Positions 26,013 to 48,665 of a stretch of 64,000 nt of DNA are shown here, piece by piece. Position numbers and translations under genes: made by a program. The notes beneath the pieces were generated by a model. That model was given only the letters and a program-made list of their open reading frames with translations, did not search any database and had not been told where the DNA came from. Within the stretch, counting starts at the first letter, position 1. The number at the start of each line of letters is the position of its first letter. This DNA comes from Arcanobacterium canis (GTDB lineage: Bacteria > Actinomycetota > Actinomycetes > Actinomycetales > Actinomycetaceae), in NCBI RefSeq assembly GCF_029625435.1, contig NZ_CP121208.1:1798001-1862000 (forward strand), given 5' to 3'.

Positions 26013-27416
26013 ATGCAAACCGCCTCTTTTACACTTCCAGGCCACACGACGTTTGAGCACCGCCTCCAGGTTCCCCTCGACTGGGACGGCTCCCTGACGC
26101 CGTATGCGTCCAGCGCACATTTCCCGAAAACGATCACTGTTTTTGCACGCGAAATCGTGCGCGAGGGACGCGAGAACGCGCCTCGTCTGGTGTACTTCCA
26201 GGGCGGCCCAGGTTTCCCTGCAAACCGGCCGGCGCCAATCGGTGGCTGGATCAACGACGTACTCGATGACTACCGCCTTGTCTTGATCGACGAGCGCGGC
26301 ACCGGTCAGTCTCATGCGTTAGACCAAGTCACGGTGCCTGTGGTGGGCGACGCCGACGCGCAAGCCGTCTACCTTGCGTGTTTCCGCGCAGATTCGATCA
26401 TTCGCGACGCCGAAGCGCTGCGTCGCGAACTCCAAGGCGACGAGCCGTGGGCCGCTCTGGGGCAAAGCTTTGGTGGTTTCTGTGTCACCTCATATCTTTC
26501 ACTCGCGCCCGAAGGTCTGAGCGCAGCAATGATCGTCGCGGGTCTCGTTTCCACACATCGCCACGCCGACGATGTCTACCGTTTGACCTGGGCCTCTACT
26601 GATCGACGTAACGCCGAGTTTTTCGAACGTTACCCTTGCGACGAAACGACCGCGTGGCATGTTGCCGAACATCTCGCCGCTGGTGCAGCCGCAGCCCTTG
26701 AATCGGGCGATCCTCACGCGGCTGAGCTCCTCCCCACTGGCGAGATCCTCACGCCTGGGCGTTTCCGAATGCTTGGCATTAATCTTGGCCGCAGTTATGG
26801 TTTGGAAACTTTGCATGGCCTGCTCGAAAACCCGTTTGTGGAAGTCGGCGGGCGCACGCGTCTGACTCAACGTTTCCTCACACAGGTGGCCGATCATATT
26901 TCTTATGCCAGCTGCCCAATGTATTGGGCGCTCCACGAGTCGATCTATGCAGGTCCAGGACTCGCCACGCGTTGGTCGGCACAACGAATCCGCACCGAAT
27001 GTGAACAATTCACACTTCCTGAGCTTTCCGCAGGCGGAGACGGCGAACGTGAACTTCGCGCCCGTGGCCTTGGTTTCCGTTTCTCGGGTGAGCACGAATT
27101 CCCCTGGATGGCGCAAACAGATCCTGCTTTGCGCGGGCTGGGAGCGGCCGTGAACGCACTCCACGAACGCGATGATTTACCCTCACTCCATCGTGAGGAG
27201 GTTCTGGCGAAGAACAGTGTTCCGGCAGCGGCGTGGATGTACGAACCAGATATGTTCGTGCCGATCGAAATTTCACGTGAAACGGCGGCACAGATCCGCG
27301 GGCTCAAGCAGATCGAGCATCCAACATTCCATCATGACGCACTCTCCACGCAGTCGTCGGATATTATCTCCGGCTTGAAAGCCGAACTGGCTGACGTCTG
27401 GGGCAAACGAGCCTGA
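26013..27416 (+). CDS. Alpha/beta hydrolase, prolyl aminopeptidase-like (S33)
   Basis: This is a 467-residue cytosolic hydrolase. Features in order are VYFQGGPGFP (oxyanion HGGPG-type motif, near 70), LIDERGTGQS (near 95), and the nucleophile elbow ALGQSFGGF (about 150). An expanded helical cap follows, and the catalytic His likely lies in the C-terminal EHPTFHHD stretch. The size and GGPG...DxRGxG pattern fit prolyl iminopeptidase-type S33 enzymes that remove N-terminal proline or similar residues. Start ATG 26013. A parS-like sequence lies inside the gene at 27269-27284. Confidence 0.85.
   Translation: MQTASFTLPGHTTFEHRLQVPLDWDGSLTPYASSAHFPKTITVFAREIVREGRENAPRLVYFQGGPGFPANRPAPIGGWINDVLDDYRLVLIDERGTGQSHALDQVTVPVVGDADAQAVYLACFRADSIIRDAEALRRELQGDEPWAALGQSFGGFCVTSYLSLAPEGLSAAMIVAGLVSTHRHADDVYRLTWASTDRRNAEFFERYPCDETTAWHVAEHLAAGAAAALESGDPHAAELLPTGEILTPGRFRMLGINLGRSYGLETLHGLLENPFVEVGGRTRLTQRFLTQVADHISYASCPMYWALHESIYAGPGLATRWSAQRIRTECEQFTLPELSAGGDGERELRARGLGFRFSGEHEFPWMAQTDPALRGLGAAVNALHERDDLPSLHREEVLAKNSVPAAAWMYEPDMFVPIEISRETAAQIRGLKQIEHPTFHHDALSTQSSDIISGLKAELADVWGKRA
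27269..27284. promoter_or_regulatory. parS-like sequence inside the S33 peptidase gene
   Basis: The core TTTCACGTGAAAC at 27271-27283 matches the ParB-binding consensus TGTTTCACGTGAAACA at 13 of 16 positions when the whole site is aligned. It sits within coding sequence, as many parS sites do. The window end is close to the expected parAB region, which makes a functional site plausible but not shown. Confidence 0.35.
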
Positions 27417-27479
27417 ACGCTTCGTTACTTACCAACATAGAGTCACCACACAGCAACAAAAGAAACCCAAAGGAGCATC

Positions 27480-27701
27480 GTGGCAGATTTCTTCGAACGT
27501 AACCGCGCAGGGAAATGGTCGTGGATCGGCTGGGCATTTTTCGCCTATGGAGCGGCGATGACCTTCATCTTAGCCTGGTTCGAAATGCACTGGGCGATGT
27601 TGGCACTGACCGCCGCCGGCCCGCTCACAGTGTGGGCCGTGTGTATGGCAGTGGCGTGGCGTCTGCGACGCAAGCAACGAGCGAAGCGCCCGAAGAAGTA
27701 G
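27480..27701 (+). CDS. Small two-span membrane protein
   Basis: This 73-residue protein starts at GTG 27480, with AAAGGAG six bases upstream. Two hydrophobic segments (WIGWAFFAYGAAMTFILAWF and MLALTAAGPLTVWAVCMAVAW) are joined by a very short loop, and the C-terminus is strongly basic (RLRRKQRAKRPKK), predicting both ends in the cytosol. No family is recognised. The clear ribosome site and charge pattern argue that it is real. It follows the S33 peptidase by 63 bases and may share its transcript. Confidence 0.65.
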   Translation: MADFFERNRAGKWSWIGWAFFAYGAAMTFILAWFEMHWAMLALTAAGPLTVWAVCMAVAWRLRRKQRAKRPKK

Positions 27702-27832
27702 GTTCCCCACTCGGTTTCGCACGCTTCGCCGTCATTCGCGAGTATGCCAACGGTTCTTCTGCAACACATAGAACGCGTATGCGCTGGTGAGGACAGCAGC
27801 GAAATTATCTCACTACCCAGACAGTGCGAAAA

Positions 27833-28480
27833 TCAGTTCGTTCCGATTCGAAGTTGGCGCTCGCAGCGCTGCGCAATTGCGGGATCGTGTGTCACCATCA
27901 CCAGCGCCTTACCAAATTCTCGACACAGCACAAAGAGTTCGTCAAGGACAACTCCCGCAAGATGTTGATCAAGCGCGCCGGTTGGTTCGTCTGCCAAAAT
28001 AATTTTCCCTGGCTTAAGCATACACCGCGCAATTGCCACGCGCTGTTGTTCTCCACCCGAAAGGGTGTAAACACTAGCATCGATCACGCTCCCCAAACCG
28101 AGGATTTTGAGTACCCGTCGCGCCTCCGCTTCATGGTTTTTCTTCGGCAGCGGCGAATACTTCATTCCGAGAAGAACGTTTTGGAGCGCAGTTTGCGATT
28201 CCAAAAGCGCATAGGATTGGAAAAGGTAGCTGATCACGGAGCGCCTCAACTTCGTTGCGGCAGACGAGTTGATCCCTGGCGTATCTTTCCCATCAATGCG
28301 AATCGTTCCAGACGTCGGTTCTTCAAGTAAACCAATCATGTTGAGGAGCGTTGATTTTCCGCTTCCGGATTGACCTGTGATCGCCATGGTTTGTTGTGAT
28401 TCAAGCGTGAAGCTGAGCGATTCAATGATGGTGCGCTTGCCGTATTTTTTCGTCAAGTTCTGAACTTCGAGGATTGACAT
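27833..28480 (-). CDS. ABC transporter ATPase of lactococcin-972-type bacteriocin locus
   Basis: This is a 215-residue ATPase. Walker A GQSGSGKST is at 36-44, the Q-loop in SYLFQSYALLESQTALQNVLLG, the signature LSGGEQQRVAIARC, Walker B IILADEPTGALD, and the switch His in VMVTHDP. It is of the MacB/LolD type that pairs with FtsX-like permeases. In lactococcin 972 loci a comparable ATPase (TIGRFAM describes a lactococcin 972-group export ATPase) follows the integral membrane gene, exactly as here: its ATG is nine bases after that stop. A role in export of, or immunity to, the bacteriocin is inferred from the gene order. Confidence 0.92.
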   Translation of the reverse strand: MSILEVQNLTKKYGKRTIIESLSFTLESQQTMAITGQSGSGKSTLLNMIGLLEEPTSGTIRIDGKDTPGINSSAATKLRRSVISYLFQSYALLESQTALQNVLLGMKYSPLPKKNHEAEARRVLKILGLGSVIDASVYTLSGGEQQRVAIARCMLKPGKIILADEPTGALDQHLAGVVLDELFVLCREFGKALVMVTHDPAIAQRCERQLRIGTN

Positions 28481-28489
28481 GAGATATCC

Positions 28490-30694
28490 TTAGTTTGCTT
28501 TGAGAATGTGGGAAATATGGGTGGTGGCCGTTCGGCGAGCAACTGCGAAGAGCACAACGATTTGGATCGCCCCGAGAATGGGGGTGATGCAGAGAATTCC
28601 ATCGGACTTTAGTGGGATACCTATGAGTGTTCCGATCACTGTCGTTGCAAAGACAAGAGCGAACGGCGCCCAGAAAATACGAATGAGCGGATATCCCAGA
28701 AGCCTCATCACCGCGACGCACTGGGCATGGGCCTTGCCATAGAGCTGTACCAGCCCCACAAGGAGGATGGTCTCGATGAGAGCGCCCAGCGCGATCACTG
28801 TTCCGAATAGCTGAAGAAGACGTACAAACGATTTGTGAAGCCCTGCAAGGAAATCGGAGACAGGGATGAACTGTGGCGCATTATCTTCCAGATGGTACTG
28901 GGAAAGGTACCGCTCGTTTGCGTATTTTTCAGCCGCCTGCGCATCAAGCTTGATGTAACTATCTTCCAAACCGGTTGCCCCGAGGCTTTCGTTCTCGAAA
29001 TACGTCATATTCTCCGTTGTCGCCAGATAAATGACGGGGTCGCTCACTGTCGAATTTTGTGGTGCCTGCGCATTCCATGTGAAGAACTTTTCACGTGGAA
29101 TATAGGTGCGGAATTCGAATCGTGGGTTCTTCGTAAATTTCGTCACGATAGGAGAATCGAGACGGTCTTTGTCGTTTTCAGTCAGCCATCCGCGAATCGC
29201 CTTTTGTTGCTCCCGAGAGTAGCTCTCTGGAATGTAGTAGACACGCACCCCGGAACGGGCAAGTTCTTCATCAGTTTTTGGAACATCAAAGTGTGTTGAC
29301 CGTAGGTAATTCGGCGAAGCAGCAAAATACCAAAATGGCTCAATCGGCAGGTTTTCGTATGAAAAATCTTCACGCCACTGCTTAATTGTCTGAGCATTGA
29401 AGTCAAAAGTGTTAATCAGTTGAACTCCAGGTTTGTCTTCAATCGAGGCATACCAATTGAAGTATTCGCGTTGTTTTCCTTCACTCGCTCCATTACTTGA
29501 AAGCTGATTCGTGCCAGGTCTGTCCTCATGGAGGATCCGCGTTTGTTCCACGGGTTGCCACTGCGATCGGATCTCTTGGATTTTCGCAATCTGAATCATG
29601 GGACCATCGATGAAGTGTAGCCCCGTGATCGATGCTCCGCTGGTGAGAATAAAGAGGACTGCGATAGCACCAACGATGACGCGCTGAGAAACTCGATTTC
29701 GAATAGCATTCACCGGATGTATTGCACTCGCTGCTAAAATTGTTGGCACACATGCGATCAGCAACGACACAATGTACAGCCCAATATTTGCTGAAATATC
29801 AATCACGGTTTGTGTATTGATAGAAAATTCCCAGCGCTCCCAGACCTCGATCACGCCGATACTCGCAACTCCAATTCCTGCCCCTATCAGGCTAAAACGC
29901 CACATGGTGGTGAGGAACTCACGCTTTGTGAGTCCGAGAAGAAGATAAATTCCCATCTGTTTCATCGACTGGTAGATGCCCACAAGGAACATCATCGAGA
30001 TCATGATGAGATCGATGGCAAGAAAGGCGCGAATGATCGGCAAAAAGACACCTTCCGTAGCGGACTCGCCGGAAGTAATGGCTGTGATCTGCGCTTTCGG
30101 AGTAGCCACGATTCCGGCAATTTTGTCGGAGATCTTATCGAATCGGGAAGGAGTCAGACCGATAACGTAGTAGGCTCCTCGCGCTGTTCCTGAACGGGTA
30201 ATGAGTTCATCGAGATGCATGCCCACGGCACGAGATGAGAAGTCAATGCTCGGAATATCAGCAATGACCTCCGCTTGAACCTGATCGAGCCCAAGTGTGG
30301 ATTTTTGCTGTGATTTGGACAGGGCGGCGAGATTCTCTTGAGAAAAAATCTTCACTCCGCCGAATTCTAATTCGGCTTGCGCAGGAGCATTCGACAGCTT
30401 CCCGCCAAAACCAAATCGATAACCTTCAGTTTGCCCATTGATGCGAGAGACTAGTGGATCACGGCGAACAATGACACCGCCATTTTTCTCCACTTCACCC
30501 TGAGCGACCCGCACCGCCTTTCCAACAAGGCCATCATCACTGATCGCCGAGAGATTCAGAACAGTGTTTGTTGCGGGATAGCCAGCAATCACCCTCATAT
30601 ATTCGTCACCAAAAGACAGCGTGGAGCTCAAACCAACCAGAACACCAGCGAGAGCAATCAACAAACTCAGCGTGAGCTTTAAAAAGCGTTTCAT
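28490..30694 (-). CDS. Bacteriocin-associated integral membrane protein (FtsX/MacB-like permease)
   Basis: The 734-residue protein has an N-terminal span (LTLSLLIALAGVLVGLSSTLSF), a large extracytoplasmic region, and three spans near 255-355 (FLAIDLIMISMMFLVGIY, FSLIGAGIGVASIGVIEVW, ISANIGLYIVSLLIACVPTIL). A further span precedes a second large outside domain, with C-terminal spans after that (LFGTVIALGALIETILLVGLV, FALVFATTVIGTLIGIPL, CITPILGAIQIVVLFAVA). This matches the bacteriocin-associated integral membrane proteins of lactococcin 972 loci, thought to form the permease or immunity component with the ATPase. It starts 36 bases after the bacteriocin gene. Its codons are more AT-rich than those of neighbouring housekeeping genes. 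Confidence 0.88.
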   Translation of the reverse strand: MKRFLKLTLSLLIALAGVLVGLSSTLSFGDEYMRVIAGYPATNTVLNLSAISDDGLVGKAVRVAQGEVEKNGGVIVRRDPLVSRINGQTEGYRFGFGGKLSNAPAQAELEFGGVKIFSQENLAALSKSQQKSTLGLDQVQAEVIADIPSIDFSSRAVGMHLDELITRSGTARGAYYVIGLTPSRFDKISDKIAGIVATPKAQITAITSGESATEGVFLPIIRAFLAIDLIMISMMFLVGIYQSMKQMGIYLLLGLTKREFLTTMWRFSLIGAGIGVASIGVIEVWERWEFSINTQTVIDISANIGLYIVSLLIACVPTILAASAIHPVNAIRNRVSQRVIVGAIAVLFILTSGASITGLHFIDGPMIQIAKIQEIRSQWQPVEQTRILHEDRPGTNQLSSNGASEGKQREYFNWYASIEDKPGVQLINTFDFNAQTIKQWREDFSYENLPIEPFWYFAASPNYLRSTHFDVPKTDEELARSGVRVYYIPESYSREQQKAIRGWLTENDKDRLDSPIVTKFTKNPRFEFRTYIPREKFFTWNAQAPQNSTVSDPVIYLATTENMTYFENESLGATGLEDSYIKLDAQAAEKYANERYLSQYHLEDNAPQFIPVSDFLAGLHKSFVRLLQLFGTVIALGALIETILLVGLVQLYGKAHAQCVAVMRLLGYPLIRIFWAPFALVFATTVIGTLIGIPLKSDGILCITPILGAIQIVVLFAVARRTATTHISHILKAN

Positions 30695-30730
30695 TATTTC
30701 TTCCGCGATCCACTAGAAATTCGTCATGTT

Positions 30731-31027
30731 TTATCCACGGCAATCCCAGTAAGCACGGGCAGTACCGGTTCCAACCCAGTCAGTAGCGTACGCTCGCGTG
30801 CCTTTAGGCATCCACCGCGTAGTCTTCGAATTGGCAGTCGCTCTGTGCTCGTAGCGGCCAGAGTTTACATCAGAATATGACCATGCCCCCCATGTACGTC
30901 CATGATCCCAATACACTGCTGTGCCTTTGTAGTAGACAGTTTGGGCATATGCTGCCCCAACGCCGCCGACAAGCATCATCGATGCGAGGCCCGCAGCACC
31001 CATTGCTCGGACAAGTTGTTTCTTCAT
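30731..31027 (-). CDS. Lactococcin 972 family bacteriocin precursor
   Basis: This is a 98-residue precursor with a typical Sec signal peptide (MKKQLVRAMGAAGLASMMLV ... AYA, cleavage likely after residue 28), leaving about 70 residues. The mature part has the family layout: W-D-H-G at 40-43, an aromatic YS pair at about 51-52, H-R-A-T at 61-64, and a C-terminal W/Y-rich end. Lactococcin 972 itself has WQHG, YSNY and HSAT at equivalent places. That bacteriocin binds lipid II and blocks septum formation; the same target here is inferred. The ATG at 31027 follows GAAAGGGG. It is the first gene of an operon with a membrane protein and an ATPase, transcribed away from a two-component system. Confidence 0.9.
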   Translation of the reverse strand: MKKQLVRAMGAAGLASMMLVGGVGAAYAQTVYYKGTAVYWDHGRTWGAWSYSDVNSGRYEHRATANSKTTRWMPKGTRAYATDWVGTGTARAYWDCRG

Positions 31028-31107
31028 GTGGAACCCCTTTCTGAAGATTAGTGACGTTCCAGGTTTTCCTGGCGCCAGGCCTATAAAACTCGGATTCCAC
31101 CAAATGC

Positions 31108-31129
31108 AATACCTACAAATGTAGGTATT
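31108..31129. promoter_or_regulatory. Perfect inverted repeat between bacteriocin and regulator genes
   Basis: The arms AATACCTACA and TGTAGGTATT are exact reverse complements separated by two bases. The repeat lies 81 bases upstream of the bacteriocin ATG and 68 bases upstream of the small + strand ORF. A possible -10-like TTATAG for the bacteriocin transcript lies about 25-30 bases downstream of it on the minus strand, placing the repeat at or just upstream of the -35 region. That suits an activator site such as one for the adjacent response regulator. Confidence 0.6.
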
Positions 31130-31196
31130 CGATTTCTCTCTCCTTGCCTACAGTGACCTTCACATACCAGAAAATCACTATTCCTCAAAGAACCTC

Positions 31197-31421
31197 ATGA
31201 AGATCCACATCGCTTTACGAACTGCTTCTGCTACGCTCATCCTCACTGCTTCTCTCATCAGCACTCCTCATGTTTCATACGACAACCTCTCCGTGCCGCG
31301 ACAAGTTGTGTCTCATTTCGAGGGCCTCATGGAACCTGTTGACCAATCAGGACACAGGCAAGCGTTTCTATGTTCAACACGTTTACACAATTGGTTTCCG
31401 TGGTGCATAATGAACAAATGA
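31197..31421 (+). CDS. Small putatively exported protein coupled to the sensor kinase gene
   Basis: This is a 74-residue ORF. Residues 1-22 (MKIHIALRTASATLILTASL) have a signal-peptide-like basic head and hydrophobic core. The rest is polar with two cysteines and ends CSTRLHNWFPWCIMNK. Its TGA overlaps the ATG of the histidine kinase in an ATGA arrangement at 31418-31421, which favours real, coupled translation. No good ribosome site precedes the ATG. I do not recognise a family. It could be a secreted signal or accessory protein for the sensor, or only a leader that couples kinase translation. A chance ORF cannot be excluded. Confidence 0.45.
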   Translation: MKIHIALRTASATLILTASLISTPHVSYDNLSVPRQVVSHFEGLMEPVDQSGHRQAFLCSTRLHNWFPWCIMNK

Positions 31422-32548
31422 GTTTTCAGTTGTTTCCCAATGAACACTCTTTGTCAGCTGACATGCAAATATCACATTTACTCACGCCTCGGTCGATATC
31501 CTATTTTCTGATTGCGCTTCTCTTCGGAATTCCGGACCTGGCTTGGTCTGCAACCACTATCCAAAACACACTCTGGCTATCAGTTGCAGTTGCACTTTTT
31601 ACTCTCGCAAGTCAGGCCACGATTCTTCAGATAGTTTTCATCTCCTACGCTTCAATTCTGATCCTCCAGGTTTTCCCTGAGCTTCCAGGTATTTGCATTT
31701 TCGGGATATACACAATCATCATCGATTGGATCGATTCGGGCTTTTTCCTTCGAGCGTTTTCATTACTCGGAATTTTCCAGATCAGCGCATCATTGATGTT
31801 TCCCCATGCGAATGCCATCGATGTTGTGTTTTCATTCATCGCACCCATCATCCTTTGTGTGGGGTTGGGGTTTTTCCTTCGCTGGATTCACAGCCGGATC
31901 CACACACTTGAAGAAGAAAATGCCACAATCGTCGTCGAAACCAAGACAAAACTCGCCTCCCTCCTTCACGACACAACCGCGAAAGACATCGCACACATCG
32001 CCGTCCTCGTTGGCGACACCCTAGCAAAAAATGACATTCCTCCACACGCGCGTCAGACACTCAAAGAGATCAGCATTATCGCAACGCGTGCTTCGAGAAA
32101 CTTACGCCCGATGATCCTCGATCTTTCAACCGCGCGTGATCAGCCACTCAACGATGTCCTCGACGACACCCGCCGAATGCTCTCAACCCGCTCGATCACG
32201 TTAACCACAAGAATCACCGGCCCCAACGGCGATCCGCTCGATTCGCTTTCTTCTGTACAGCACTCTGTCCGGATCAAACAGCTTTTAACCCTTGCTCTAC
32301 GCGAAGAAGCAACCAACGTCCTCAAGTACGCCCCCGATCATTCCCACGCAATTCTCATCATCGATGTTGGGGATACGGATACCTCGCTCACGTTTACTAA
32401 CGCGATTGCCAAACATCCACAGTCAGGGATGGCCGGCGGGTACGGCCTGGATAACTTGCGTATTCAGGTGGAACGCCGCGGTGGCACGCTCGATTATTCA
32501 CGTATCCGCGACAAGTGGATCTTCGCTTTGGAGGTACCGAATGAGTAA
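31418..32548 (+). CDS. Histidine kinase, HisKA_3 family, multi-span membrane sensor
   Basis: With the chosen ATG the protein has 376 residues. Five or six spans occupy about 27-155, with little extracytoplasmic sequence, as in intramembrane-sensing kinases (LiaS/DesK type). The phosphoacceptor region reads LASLLHDTTAKDIAHIAVL with H184, the N-box LREEATNVLKYA is near 300, and the glycine box GGYGLDNLRIQVE is near the end. The start at 31418 is chosen because it forms an ATGA overlap with the preceding ORF; a start 16 codons earlier (31370) is possible and ribosome sites are poor for both. It overlaps the response regulator by eight bases. It likely controls the divergent bacteriocin operon. 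Confidence 0.85.
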   Translation: MSFQLFPNEHSLSADMQISHLLTPRSISYFLIALLFGIPDLAWSATTIQNTLWLSVAVALFTLASQATILQIVFISYASILILQVFPELPGICIFGIYTIIIDWIDSGFFLRAFSLLGIFQISASLMFPHANAIDVVFSFIAPIILCVGLGFFLRWIHSRIHTLEEENATIVVETKTKLASLLHDTTAKDIAHIAVLVGDTLAKNDIPPHARQTLKEISIIATRASRNLRPMILDLSTARDQPLNDVLDDTRRMLSTRSITLTTRITGPNGDPLDSLSSVQHSVRIKQLLTLALREEATNVLKYAPDHSHAILIIDVGDTDTSLTFTNAIAKHPQSGMAGGYGLDNLRIQVERRGGTLDYSRIRDKWIFALEVPNE

Positions 32549-33215
32549 GCCGATTCGCATCATTCTCGCCGACGACGACGAACAGTACATCGCCGTTCTT
32601 GCACGGTTTTTCGATCGGCAAGACGACATGGAGGTGATCACCGTCGCTCACGACGGTGAGGAAGCGATCACCGCAGCTGCAACGAGGCTCGCGGACATGA
32701 TCATCCTCGACGTTGACATGCCCTGTGCCGATGGGCCAAGCGCCGCGAAAACAATCAAACGCATCAGCCCCAAGCTGAAGATCCTCATGCTCACCGCGTT
32801 TCGTCACCCAAACACACTTGAGCATTGTCTGCGCCTCGGGGTGTCCGGATTCCTCACGAAAGACACAATGCCCCAACAACTCGTTGAGCAAGTGCGCCTA
32901 GCGATGACCGGGCAGACTGTGCTCGGCCCGTCACCGGCGCAGATACTCACTGCCTCCTATCTGGCGTCCCAGCATTCGCGCGAAGAGTTCGCCGAATTCG
33001 TTGAGGTAGTTGAGAATCTTTCACCCCGACTGCGCAACGTTTTCGACGACGTTGTCCTGGCCTACACAAACAAAGAAATCGCGCAGCGTCAAGGACTGTC
33101 CGAGACCACGGTGCGCGGATATGTCACTGAGATCCTGACAATGACACGGATGCGTTCCCGAGCCAAAATAATCCTCACTGCAGCAAAAACAGGCTTCGTC
33201 CATGACGGTAACTAA
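32541..33215 (+). CDS. NarL/LuxR-family response regulator
   Basis: The product has 224 residues. The receiver domain shows the acidic pair in IILADDDEQY, the phosphoacceptor D57 in MIILDVDMP, the T/S in MLTAFRHP and the K in GFLTKDTMP. A LuxR-type helix-turn-helix follows at about 165-200 (LSPRLRNVFDDVVLAYTNKEIAQRQGLSETTVRGY). ATG 32541 follows GGAGGTACCGA and overlaps the kinase stop. The pairing with a HisKA_3 kinase is the usual one. The nearest divergent target is the bacteriocin operon, through the inverted repeat at 31108-31129; that assignment is inferred from position. Confidence 0.92.
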   Translation: MSKPIRIILADDDEQYIAVLARFFDRQDDMEVITVAHDGEEAITAAATRLADMIILDVDMPCADGPSAAKTIKRISPKLKILMLTAFRHPNTLEHCLRLGVSGFLTKDTMPQQLVEQVRLAMTGQTVLGPSPAQILTASYLASQHSREEFAEFVEVVENLSPRLRNVFDDVVLAYTNKEIAQRQGLSETTVRGYVTEILTMTRMRSRAKIILTAAKTGFVHDGN

Positions 33216-33347
33216 ACACTGGATGGGCAACAACGATCACAAACAGCGTGAAGCTGACGTGAGTGCGAAGAACATCAAGAATTTTTCCAATAGCACTCTG
33301 ATACTGTTGTACGCCCGATGCTGCTATCTCCCCGTAGATAGATAGCG

Positions 33348-33426
33348 TATTATAGTTTTTGGCGCTACCCCGGTGGCGCAATCGTTCGGAAAATTCGAGC
33401 GCCGCACACGACACGCGCCAGTGTCG
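33348..33426 (+). promoter_or_regulatory. Putative promoter element and three-hairpin leader of the guanine deaminase gene
   Basis: TATTAT at 33348-33353 resembles a -10 element. Directly after it come three stem-loops: GCGCTAC with GTGGCGC (33362-33379, one G-U), CGTTCG with CGAGCG (33383-33401), and CGACAC with GTGTCG (33409-33426, perfect). The start codon is 65 bases further on, and no U-tract follows, so this is not a standard terminator. I do not recognise a known riboswitch. Confidence 0.4.
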
Positions 33427-33491
33427 TCCCCCTGGATATAAACGATTCTAGGGTCACATACCTCATCCATAGGCAGTGAAAGGGCATAAAA

Positions 33492-34808
33492 ATGCTCGCA
33501 ATCCATAGCGCTTATCTTAGCTTTCAAGCAAACCCATTCGAGGTGCCATTTGACGAGGCAGCAACGTATCACTCTGATGCCGTGATCCTTATCAAGGACG
33601 GTCATATCACCGACGTCGGCGACGCGCAGACACTACTGCCGCAACTTCCCAACGGCACTGACATCCACCACTACCCTCACCACCTCCTTCTACCGGGATT
33701 CATCGACACCCACGTCCATTACTCACAAACCCAAATGATCGCTGCTTTTGGCAAGCAGCTCCTCGATTGGCTCACACAGTACACCTACTCAACCGAACTC
33801 AGCCTGAGCAATCCCGACCATGCCCGCGCAGTAGCGCAACTCTTTCTCGATGAACAGCTTCGCAACGGCACGACGACGTCGGCCGTGTACACCACGGTGT
33901 TCCCGACGTCGGTAGATGCGATCTTTACTGAGGCCCAGAAGCGCAACATGCGCCTGATTGCGGGGAAAGTTACCATGGATCGCAACGCGCCCGATCCGCT
34001 CCTGGATACCCCACAGCGCGCTTACGATGAAAGCGCAGCGTTGATATCGCGCTGGCACGGGACAGACCGCCTCGAATACGCCATCACACCTCGCTTTGCC
34101 CCTACCTCAAGCCCTGAACAACTTGACATGCTCGGTCAGCTAGCTGCCGAACACCCCACTGTGCTCATTCAAACTCATGTCAGTGAAAATCGCGACGAAG
34201 TTGAGCTTGTTTCTCGATTGTTCCCGCAGCGATCTGGATATCTCGACGTCTATGACCATTACGGACTCGTGCGGGAGCGGTCGATTTTCGGTCATGGTCT
34301 CTATCTCAGCGACACCGAACTCAGCATCATGCATGAACGTGGCGCAAGTATTGCCCATTGCCCAACGTCAAATTTCTTCCTGGGCTCGGGTGCCTTGAAC
34401 GTCAAGCGGATCGCCGACGCCGGCGTCGGCCTGTCACTGGGAACCGATCTGGGCGCTGGAACAAGCTTTTCGATGCTCCGCACCCTGGGCGCTGCATATT
34501 CTGCGGCGCAAATGAACGGAACCGCCCTGGACGCTGGACGCGGTTTTTATCTTGCCACCCGCGCAGGCGCACAAGCACTGGGCATGGACAACAAAATCGG
34601 CCACATTAGCCCGGGGTTCGAAGCTGATCTTGTGGTACTTGATCTTCATTCAACCCCACTCATCGAGTATCGAATGGGCTTCGTTGATTCTCTGCTCGAC
34701 GCCCTGTTCGTCCAGATGACGATGGCCGATGACCGTGCAGTCGCTGCAACCTATGTGGCAGGTTCGCGCGCCTATCTGCGCTCTGAGGGAACACATCGTA
34801 ACGCATAA
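33492..34808 (+). CDS. guaD: Guanine deaminase
   Basis: This 438-residue amidohydrolase should convert guanine to xanthine and ammonia in the cytosol. The metal-binding HVHY (in LPGFIDTHVHYSQ, near 75), a second His in IQTHVSEN, FGHGLYLSD, AHCPTSNFFLGSG and the DLGAGTS motif (D for zinc and catalysis) all match bacterial guanine deaminases, as does the length. ATG 33492 follows GAAAGG at a slightly long spacing. It stands alone between the bacteriocin regulator genes and a 650-base gap. Purine catabolism or salvage is the likely role; other purine genes are not in the window. Confidence 0.9.
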   Translation: MLAIHSAYLSFQANPFEVPFDEAATYHSDAVILIKDGHITDVGDAQTLLPQLPNGTDIHHYPHHLLLPGFIDTHVHYSQTQMIAAFGKQLLDWLTQYTYSTELSLSNPDHARAVAQLFLDEQLRNGTTTSAVYTTVFPTSVDAIFTEAQKRNMRLIAGKVTMDRNAPDPLLDTPQRAYDESAALISRWHGTDRLEYAITPRFAPTSSPEQLDMLGQLAAEHPTVLIQTHVSENRDEVELVSRLFPQRSGYLDVYDHYGLVRERSIFGHGLYLSDTELSIMHERGASIAHCPTSNFFLGSGALNVKRIADAGVGLSLGTDLGAGTSFSMLRTLGAAYSAAQMNGTALDAGRGFYLATRAGAQALGMDNKIGHISPGFEADLVVLDLHSTPLIEYRMGFVDSLLDALFVQMTMADDRAVAATYVAGSRAYLRSEGTHRNA

Positions 34809-48423: not shown

Positions 48424-48665
48424 TGTGGAGAACTTGAAGTTTTTGAACAAGTCGGGCGTGCCGGGATGTATCGAACTAAGAAATAATCCACAGATGTGAA
48501 CAACTCAGTGGGCGAAATAGCGGGCTTTCTCACGAACTTATCCACTATTGTGGGTAACTGTATGCAAAACTGTGGATAACTTCGAATGTTTTTCCACCAC
48601 TTGTCCACTGTTTCGATCAAGAAATCCACAATAAACAGTAAAGTTTCCACAGCCTCTGTGGAAAC
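48424..48665. promoter_or_regulatory. DnaA-box-rich intergenic region
   Basis: Within the 388-base gap (48343-48730) there is a perfect DnaA box TTATCCACA (reverse strand, 48571-48579) and several one-mismatch copies of TT(A/G)TCCACA: 48424-48432 (reverse), 48484-48492, 48538-48546, 48601-48609. Weaker TCCACA cores lie at 48622-48630 and in both arms of the palindrome at 48635-48673. The segment is AT-rich. DnaA binding here is likely; whether it is a titration site, a regulatory site or a secondary origin is not known. Confidence 0.6.

Follow-up and report, generated by a model that had tools for sequence, protein, structure and literature searches.

Organization of the locus

We analysed a 64-kb stretch of the Arcanobacterium canis genome (contig NZ_CP121208.1; hereafter the window), positions 1,798,001–1,862,000 of the 1.87-Mb one-contig assembly, in which two divergent operons probably join a lactococcin 972-like bacteriocin to a dedicated peptide-sensing circuit. 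On the minus strand, a bacteriocin precursor of 98 amino acids (aa; 30731–31027), a large ATP-binding cassette (ABC) permease of 734 aa with a presumed immunity function (28490–30694) and an ABC ATPase of 215 aa (27833–28480) would form a single operon. On the plus strand lie a membrane sensor histidine kinase (31370–32548, with a likely start at 31418) and a LuxR/NarL-type response regulator (32544–33215), whose mechanical open reading frame (ORF) begins at TTG 32292 and whose gene fits ATG 32544. These five genes had been reported in a first-pass annotation of the window, and their positions and strands stand. It had omitted the most novel parts of the locus: a plus-strand gene for a looped-peptide precursor of 74 aa, a candidate pheromone (31197–31421), and a palindrome between the operons (31108–31129, no strand), a probable operator. 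Alpha/beta hydrolase and guanine deaminase genes flank the locus.

An Rfam scan of 27000–34000 gave 0 matches. Sigma-70-like sites in 27400–33600 numbered 5, against a shuffle mean of 5.0, and none lay immediately 5′ of the precursor; we therefore do not claim a promoter.

A divergent precursor with a predicted lactococcin 972 fold

The precursor has a Sec-like start (by eye) and the WDHG, SYS and HRAT motifs; cleavage after AYA, also judged by eye, would leave a probable mature part of 70 aa (30734–30943, minus strand). The first-pass annotation had assigned it to the lactococcin 972 type, naming a hidden Markov model (HMM) search and structure prediction as checks, and these came out differently. 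Neither PF09683 nor TIGR01653, the lactococcin 972 models of Pfam and NCBIfam, matched the precursor, against 67.7 bits for a canonical lactococcin 972-type control. AlphaFold, by contrast, predicted a confident beta-sandwich (best model, predicted local distance difference test score (pLDDT) 96.3), with which Foldseek returned lactococcin 972 at rank 1 with a probability of 1.00. In VIA-align the model matched 9hkj with a Z-score of 10.1 and 2lgn with 8.4 (root-mean-square deviation 1.4, 59 residues aligned), the next-best match reaching 4.9. The molecule name of 9hkj_A is 'Lactococcin 972 family bacteriocin', and the two top solved-structure matches are thus both proteins of this family.

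Relatives of the precursor define a subfamily with the mature-protein consensus TVYYKG.AV.W..G...H.AT.N...A.AYW[DN]C, in which W, G, S, H, N, A, A, W and C are invariant over 15 aligned sequences (L036, near-identical to L035, was omitted from alignments). Five of the 15 members touch PF09683 and four touch TIGR01653, one with an E-value of 0.00036, and all members with displayed scores fall below the cut-offs of these models. When chosen members of both types were jointly aligned with MAFFT, the W, G, S, H and A columns proved common to the subfamily and the canonical type. BLASTP of a canonical-type Lactobacillus taiwanensis sequence (L054) gave an E-value of 0.63 with the window mature protein and of 3e-5 with an L. 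corticis member of the subfamily.

Lactococcin 972 (2lgn; PF09683/TIGR01653), streptococcin B and mediterrocin are, as predicted for the present protein, Sec-exported small beta-sandwiches encoded ahead of a large membrane protein and an ABC ATPase. An excerpt of PMC12345188 gives mediterrocin just 18% identity to lactococcin 972, with a similar predicted fold. The new subfamily differs from lactococcin 972 in having YYKGxAVxWxxG, with a 2-residue insertion, in place of the GGxWxYG near the mature N terminus, of which the precursor retains W and G and substitutes the GG pair, and in ending with AYW[DN]C, which has an invariant Cys; the window precursor also lies below both HMM cut-offs.

Several results weigh against placing the precursor with lactococcin 972. 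Besides the failed HMM search, two of the five AlphaFold models are poor (mean pLDDT 96.3, 94.3, 94.0, 70.8 and 55.8), the Foldseek E-value for the lactococcin 972 match is no better than 0.035, and hhalign gave a probability of 3% between the subfamily (alignment A3) and a first, poor canonical alignment (A4), the better canonical set A5 having been used for the joint MAFFT alignment only. A PDB sequence search with the window precursor returned nothing useful, and one with the subfamily profile returned antibody chains only. An unrelated small beta-sandwich protein that is no bacteriocin would account for the absent HMM match and the hhalign value; we hold this to be extremely improbable, as the fold match stands well above the unrelated rows, a lactococcin-type permease and ATPase adjoin the precursor, the five columns named above are shared with canonical members and one subfamily member reaches TIGR01653 at the E-value given. 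The lactococcin 972 type is supported because predicted fold and gene set agree, although the family HMMs do not. Judged chiefly by the predicted fold, which carries most weight among the evidence on the precursor, the protein belongs to a subfamily that is a divergent sister of lactococcin 972 and shares its fold; by the HMM rule it falls outside the family. Binding of lipid II and a block of septum formation characterise the lactococcin 972 family, and lipid II may be the target here.

The subfamily occurs, together with permease and ATPase, in Actinomycetaceae, Lactobacillus, another member of the Lactobacillaceae, Olsenella, other Coriobacteriia, Eubacterium brachy (whose copy of the precursor lacks its start) and a Macrococcoides plasmid. 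An initial permease search of genome contigs gave no match; the permease search proper found relatives in 6 of 99 genomes, counting the window genome and two weak matches, and a search with the precursor alignment found 12 loci, two of which are the G014 loci of the permease search. Among 213 genomes of the family, the precursor type is present at 8 loci in 7 genomes. In the Macrococcoides caseolyticum plasmid NZ_CP080018.1 the precursor (L009:972-1178) lies directly 5′ of the annotated permease and ATPase; it has no gene in the PLSDB table, which is incomplete by design. One genome, G007, has a canonical PF09683 lactococcin 972-type gene (L052) elsewhere besides the new type. Lactobacillus copies of the operon lie near other regulators by eye, a Rgg-like gene and a LytTR-like two-component pair (L034:5030-5842, L039:9247-11309), and control of this bacteriocin type therefore seems to have been exchanged. 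Since every score displayed for the precursor type is under the cut-offs of the lactococcin 972 models, and its plasmid copy has no gene in PLSDB, genome mining may overlook it.

A permease and ATPase with a presumed role in immunity

The gene set known from lactococcin 972, precursor, large membrane protein and ABC ATPase, is present, and the two bacteriocin-associated models score highest for the latter two proteins, yet below their cut-offs. The permease reached 42.2 bits with TIGR01654 'bacteriocin-associated integral membrane protein' (cut-off 189.35) and 16.7 bits with FtsX of Pfam (cut-off 25.5); the best NCBIfam model of the ATPase was TIGR03608 'putative bacteriocin export ABC transporter' (230.2 bits, cut-off 254.85). 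An ATPase homologue adjoins the permease in all seven of the relatives' loci within the family that were read.

Foldseek with the permease model (pLDDT 83) gave E-values of 4.8e-8 for YbbP and 7.2e-5 for BceB, and probabilities of 1.00 to YbbP, BceB and LolE chains, at low template modelling (TM) scores of 0.19–0.30 and identities of 10–12%. The model is thus nearest to YbbP, BceB and LolCDE, the type VII ABC class (BceAB/YbbAP/LolCDE), at those low TM-scores. Excerpts of PMC11796350, PMC12345188 and PMC4055356 treat the membrane protein and ATPase genes of lactococcin 972-type systems as presumed immunity and transport genes, unproven. Here immunity is the more likely function of the pair, and export the less likely, because the precursor bears its own Sec-like signal.

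A candidate looped peptide encoded ahead of the kinase

The 74-aa ORF has a signal-like start (by eye) and ends in a Cys-x10-Cys loop, FLCSTRLHNWFPWCIMNK. Its TGA stop (31419–31421) overlaps the in-frame kinase ATG at 31418 by four bases (ATGA). The sister species G002 encodes FLCNNSLFSWSWWCKIKK 5′ of its kinase, with a GTGA overlap, and a second kinase of the subfamily in the window genome (L084) is preceded by a signal-like ORF ending in GILCWLTYGRYGCKF, so that the peptide and kinase genes overlap by four bases in the window, G002 and L084. The second peptide–kinase–regulator set (L084:8288-10312, genome about 1,577,287–1,579,311) has the loop CWLTYGRYGC; it has no palindrome at the threshold used and no obvious bacteriocin adjoining it.

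The first-pass annotation had described a HisKA_3 kinase and a LuxR-type regulator. The regulator bore this out, with Response_reg (82.6 bits) and GerE (29.5 bits) both over cut-off; the kinase scored 15.9 bits with HisKA_3, below the cut-off of 24, and is homologous to the kinases of the related loci. A search with the second kinase found matches in 100 of 149 genomes, from which 20 loci were obtained, and a regulator homologue stands beside the kinase in all 12 subfamily loci fetched (L108 is cut by a contig end).

Upstream of relatives of the window kinase, a small ORF with a signal-like start and a C-terminal Cys pair was detected in 10 of 21 loci. The reverse strand gave such an ORF in 3 of the 21, shuffled sequences did so in 7.0% of cases, and among 552 control windows, which still included the true loci, there were 42. 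A strict motif, C-x-x-[FLIVYWTM]-P-x-[LFWM]-x-x-C no further than nine residues from a stop, is present in 7 of these 21 regions; when both strands of 35 longer regions, about 409 kb in all, were searched, it had 11 occurrences, every one just 5′ of a kinase and on the same strand. The motif was composed after ten of these eleven were known, only that of L151 being new, and its weight consequently rests on the lack of matches elsewhere.

Counting against a pheromone gene are the 11 of 21 related kinases for which no upstream peptide was detected and the fifteen aligned peptides, which have both Cys in common and little else throughout. Three of the 11 misses (L090 in G003, L092 in G005 and L099 in G007) resemble decayed copies by eye, and the G007 kinase (L028/L099) itself contains stops. 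Over the last 19 codons, the window and G002 peptides differ at 4, 8 and 8 sites by codon position; because of these figures, conservation of the peptide alone fails to prove coding. The ORF could thus be an untranslated leader of the kinase mRNA with its Cys pair there by chance, a reading favoured by codon-position differences unlike those of strong purifying selection and by a detector with a background rate of about 7% in shuffles and in control windows. That rate falls well short of 10 in 21, the strict motif occurs only before kinases and the stop–start overlap is conserved, all of which makes an untranslated leader very improbable.

Alternatively, the looped peptide might be another small antimicrobial or might assist the kinase; the kinase would then sense envelope stress or the bacteriocin as LiaS or BceS do, and the system would serve self-protection, not quorum sensing. 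The permease model does resemble BceB; according to PMC7438565, relatives of BceB operate alongside two-component systems for the sensing of cell-wall antimicrobials. Several module loci also adjoin other secreted-looking proteins. We nevertheless regard self-protection as unlikely: the peptide gene directly precedes the kinase, with the four-base overlap in all three cases checked, which suits a ligand–receptor pair; the loops co-vary with their kinases; and related modules exist with no such ABC permease nearby.

For a peptide sensed by its neighbouring kinase, a near counterpart is ComQXPA of Bacillus, which has the same order of peptide gene, kinase and response regulator, the window kinase being below cut-off for HisKA_3. 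HPK7 corresponds to HisKA_3, and ComA is of the LuxR type. ComP, the sensor of the ComX peptide, is an HPK7 kinase, as stated in PMC8895600. The peptides differ in kind, ComX being isoprenylated and the present one a Sec-like pro-peptide with a Cys pair; unlike in ComQXPA, no ComQ-like isoprenyl transferase is found among the ORFs of the locus and the flanking genes. Trueperella PloS/PloR may be an already known relative of the window kinase. In open-licence PubMed Central (PMC) papers, we found no description of the peptide–kinase–regulator module and no paper on the protein formosin D.

A recurrent palindrome as candidate operator

Between the divergent operons lies a perfect 10-2-10 palindrome, AATACCTACA-AA-TGTAGGTATT. 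Allowing 2 mismatches, it has one match in the window (shuffle mean 0.06). Genome-wide, at up to 3 mismatches, it has 1 site and a reversed control pattern 12; because the control gives more, this count is no excess, and it is the perfection and position of the palindrome that matter. Related kinases have it upstream in the form ATACCGACA-NN-TGTCGGTAT, several of them with a pair of copies spaced 23–24 bases apart. At 12 or more of 14 positions, 13 sites were found in 15 related loci (15 sites if the two of the window are added), against 0–1 in each of ten Markov controls. The second, weaker window site is at 48539 (12/14).

A scan of the family found the palindrome in 20 of 213 genomes and the reversed pattern in 4 of 213. 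Among 20 further palindrome regions (those read leave out sites in G441, G356 and G041), eight have a subfamily kinase within about 2 kb, six, judged by eye, carry a secreted-looking protein of 176–240 aa close to the site (such a kinase is present as well in three of the six), and eight have neither; L152 is unclear. In two genomes of one genus the palindrome lies near clpX (L145:4349, L154:4124), with no kinase or secreted-looking protein nearby.

Other results speak against an operator. The 13 sites fall in 8 of the 15 loci, and seven, including that of the second kinase (L084), have none. The two matches in G002, ahead of the kinase operon and ahead of the precursor, are degenerate, and L031, a locus with no module, gave three when scanned equally laxly; shuffles reached the observed count in 4 of 200 cases for G002 and 2 of 200 for L031. 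Given the three matches in L031, the G002 sites carry little weight by themselves. A terminator search also lists the palindrome, as one of 8 terminator-like hairpins against a shuffle mean of 6.1.

Secreted-looking 176–240-aa proteins lie beside the palindrome or a peptide–kinase set at L139:3420-4106, L140:4853-5500, L143:3610-4140, L150:4343-5055, L151:1440-2033, L155:4164-5149, L107:8739-9347 and L113:5771-6421, and some are followed by a membrane protein of 62–88 aa. Nine such secreted-looking neighbours and two of the small membrane proteins were compared with Pfam, and no family was over cut-off. It is possible that they are further bacteriocins with their immunity proteins. The neighbours at L105, L107 and L113 were considered as one family, which comparison did not support. 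Four tandem proteins of 173–178 aa adjoin the L112 kinase.

The complete set in another genus and the history of the locus

One locus, L137, in a genome of another genus of the family (G453), was retrieved through the palindrome alone. Its order is a tandem palindrome, a peptide gene (...RCLLTPQDPDCIKHRKG), kinase and regulator, then a second tandem palindrome, precursor, permease and ATPase; identity to the window is 52% for the precursor, 35% for the permease and 57% for the ATPase. The first-pass annotation had proposed that the two-component system controls the bacteriocin operon. We find this very probably right on comparative grounds, because the palindrome sits between the operons and recurs near related kinases and because the whole set is found in another genus; the argument is carried by the G453 case and the kinase-linked peptide.

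The module accompanies the precursor type in the window genome (G000), G002 and G453. Against a general link, it is absent nearby in five of the eight operons of this precursor type in the family: in the stretches read, those of G007, G440 and G503 and both G014 loci have neither a palindrome at 12/14 nor a homologue of the kinase or regulator. In a permease tree rooted at the midpoint, G000, G002 and G453 group together in a clade (97/97) whose sister comprises G440, G007 and G503 (100/99), and because the three share a clade the module probably joined this bacteriocin lineage once.

The first-pass annotation had also suggested acquisition from elsewhere. The locus does have a low GC content (0.505, against 0.556 in the remainder of the window), and GC is lower in the three-gene operon (0.501) than in any of 523 overlapping windows of the same size taken outside the locus (lowest 0.518); codon use was examined solely as GC at third positions. 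In addition, of the 8 other members of the genus that were searched, 6 yielded no permease, and close types occur in other phyla. These observations would fit a recently transferred foreign island. In G002, however, the operon is flanked by the same two genes (88% identity for the hydrolase and 77% for the guanine deaminase), which refutes such an island unless both species acquired it separately at one site; together with a regulator remnant in G002, the synteny speaks for old presence with fast divergence, or for in-place replacement. We therefore consider recent transfer quite improbable. Spread between phyla is likely, but old.

As far as the sequences allow, the operon was probably present before the window species and G002 split. 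Between the two, identity is 78% for the ATPase, 67% for the regulator, 62% for the precursor, 53% for the permease and 45% for the kinase; either the parts that would set specificity diverge fastest or there was replacement in place. In G002 the kinase operon is on the opposite side of the bacteriocin operon, and the regulator remnant (70% identity over 50 residues) lies at the window-like position, beyond a transposase-like gene. Because G002 keeps this remnant, the divergent layout of the window is probably the older one.

A model for peptide-controlled bacteriocin production

The reading we favour, and judge fairly probable with all its steps taken together, is a bacteriocin locus run by peptide signalling. 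The precursor would leave the cell through Sec, be cut after AYA and adopt the predicted lactococcin 972 beta-sandwich. The permease and ATPase, as a putative type VII ABC pair, would protect the producer by BceAB-like target protection rather than export the bacteriocin. The divergent operon appears to encode, ahead of its membrane kinase and LuxR-type regulator, a Sec-like pro-peptide whose Cys-x10-Cys loop at the C terminus would be secreted and released, may be closed by a disulfide, and would accumulate until sensed by the kinase. The regulator would then bind the palindrome, whose recurrence is observed, and switch on both operons, leading to autoinduction and to bacteriocin release at high cell density. 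Control is probably by a peptide quorum-sensing circuit of which the open-licence literature gave no description. Streptococcin B of pneumococcus offers a precedent, being a lactococcin 972-like operon under peptide-pheromone control according to an excerpt of PMC11796350; it has a ComE site and a ComR-type regulator where the present locus has a dedicated peptide–kinase–regulator operon.

Peptide quorum sensing is best known from the Bacillota. With confidence only a little better than even, we propose that an undescribed family of Sec-exported, disulfide-looped pheromones (C-x8-C, here C-x10-C), each coupled in translation to its own HisKA_3-type kinase and LuxR-type regulator, acts across the Actinomycetaceae through ATACC[GT]ACA-NN-TGT[CA]GGTAT, controlling the divergent lactococcin 972-like subfamily as well as several unrelated secreted proteins of 176–240 aa, maybe bacteriocins with small membrane immunity proteins. 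If this is true, the recognisable loop and operator would give the Actinomycetaceae a testable signalling language, and adding the peptide and reading the promoter would provide a handle on silent bacteriocins.

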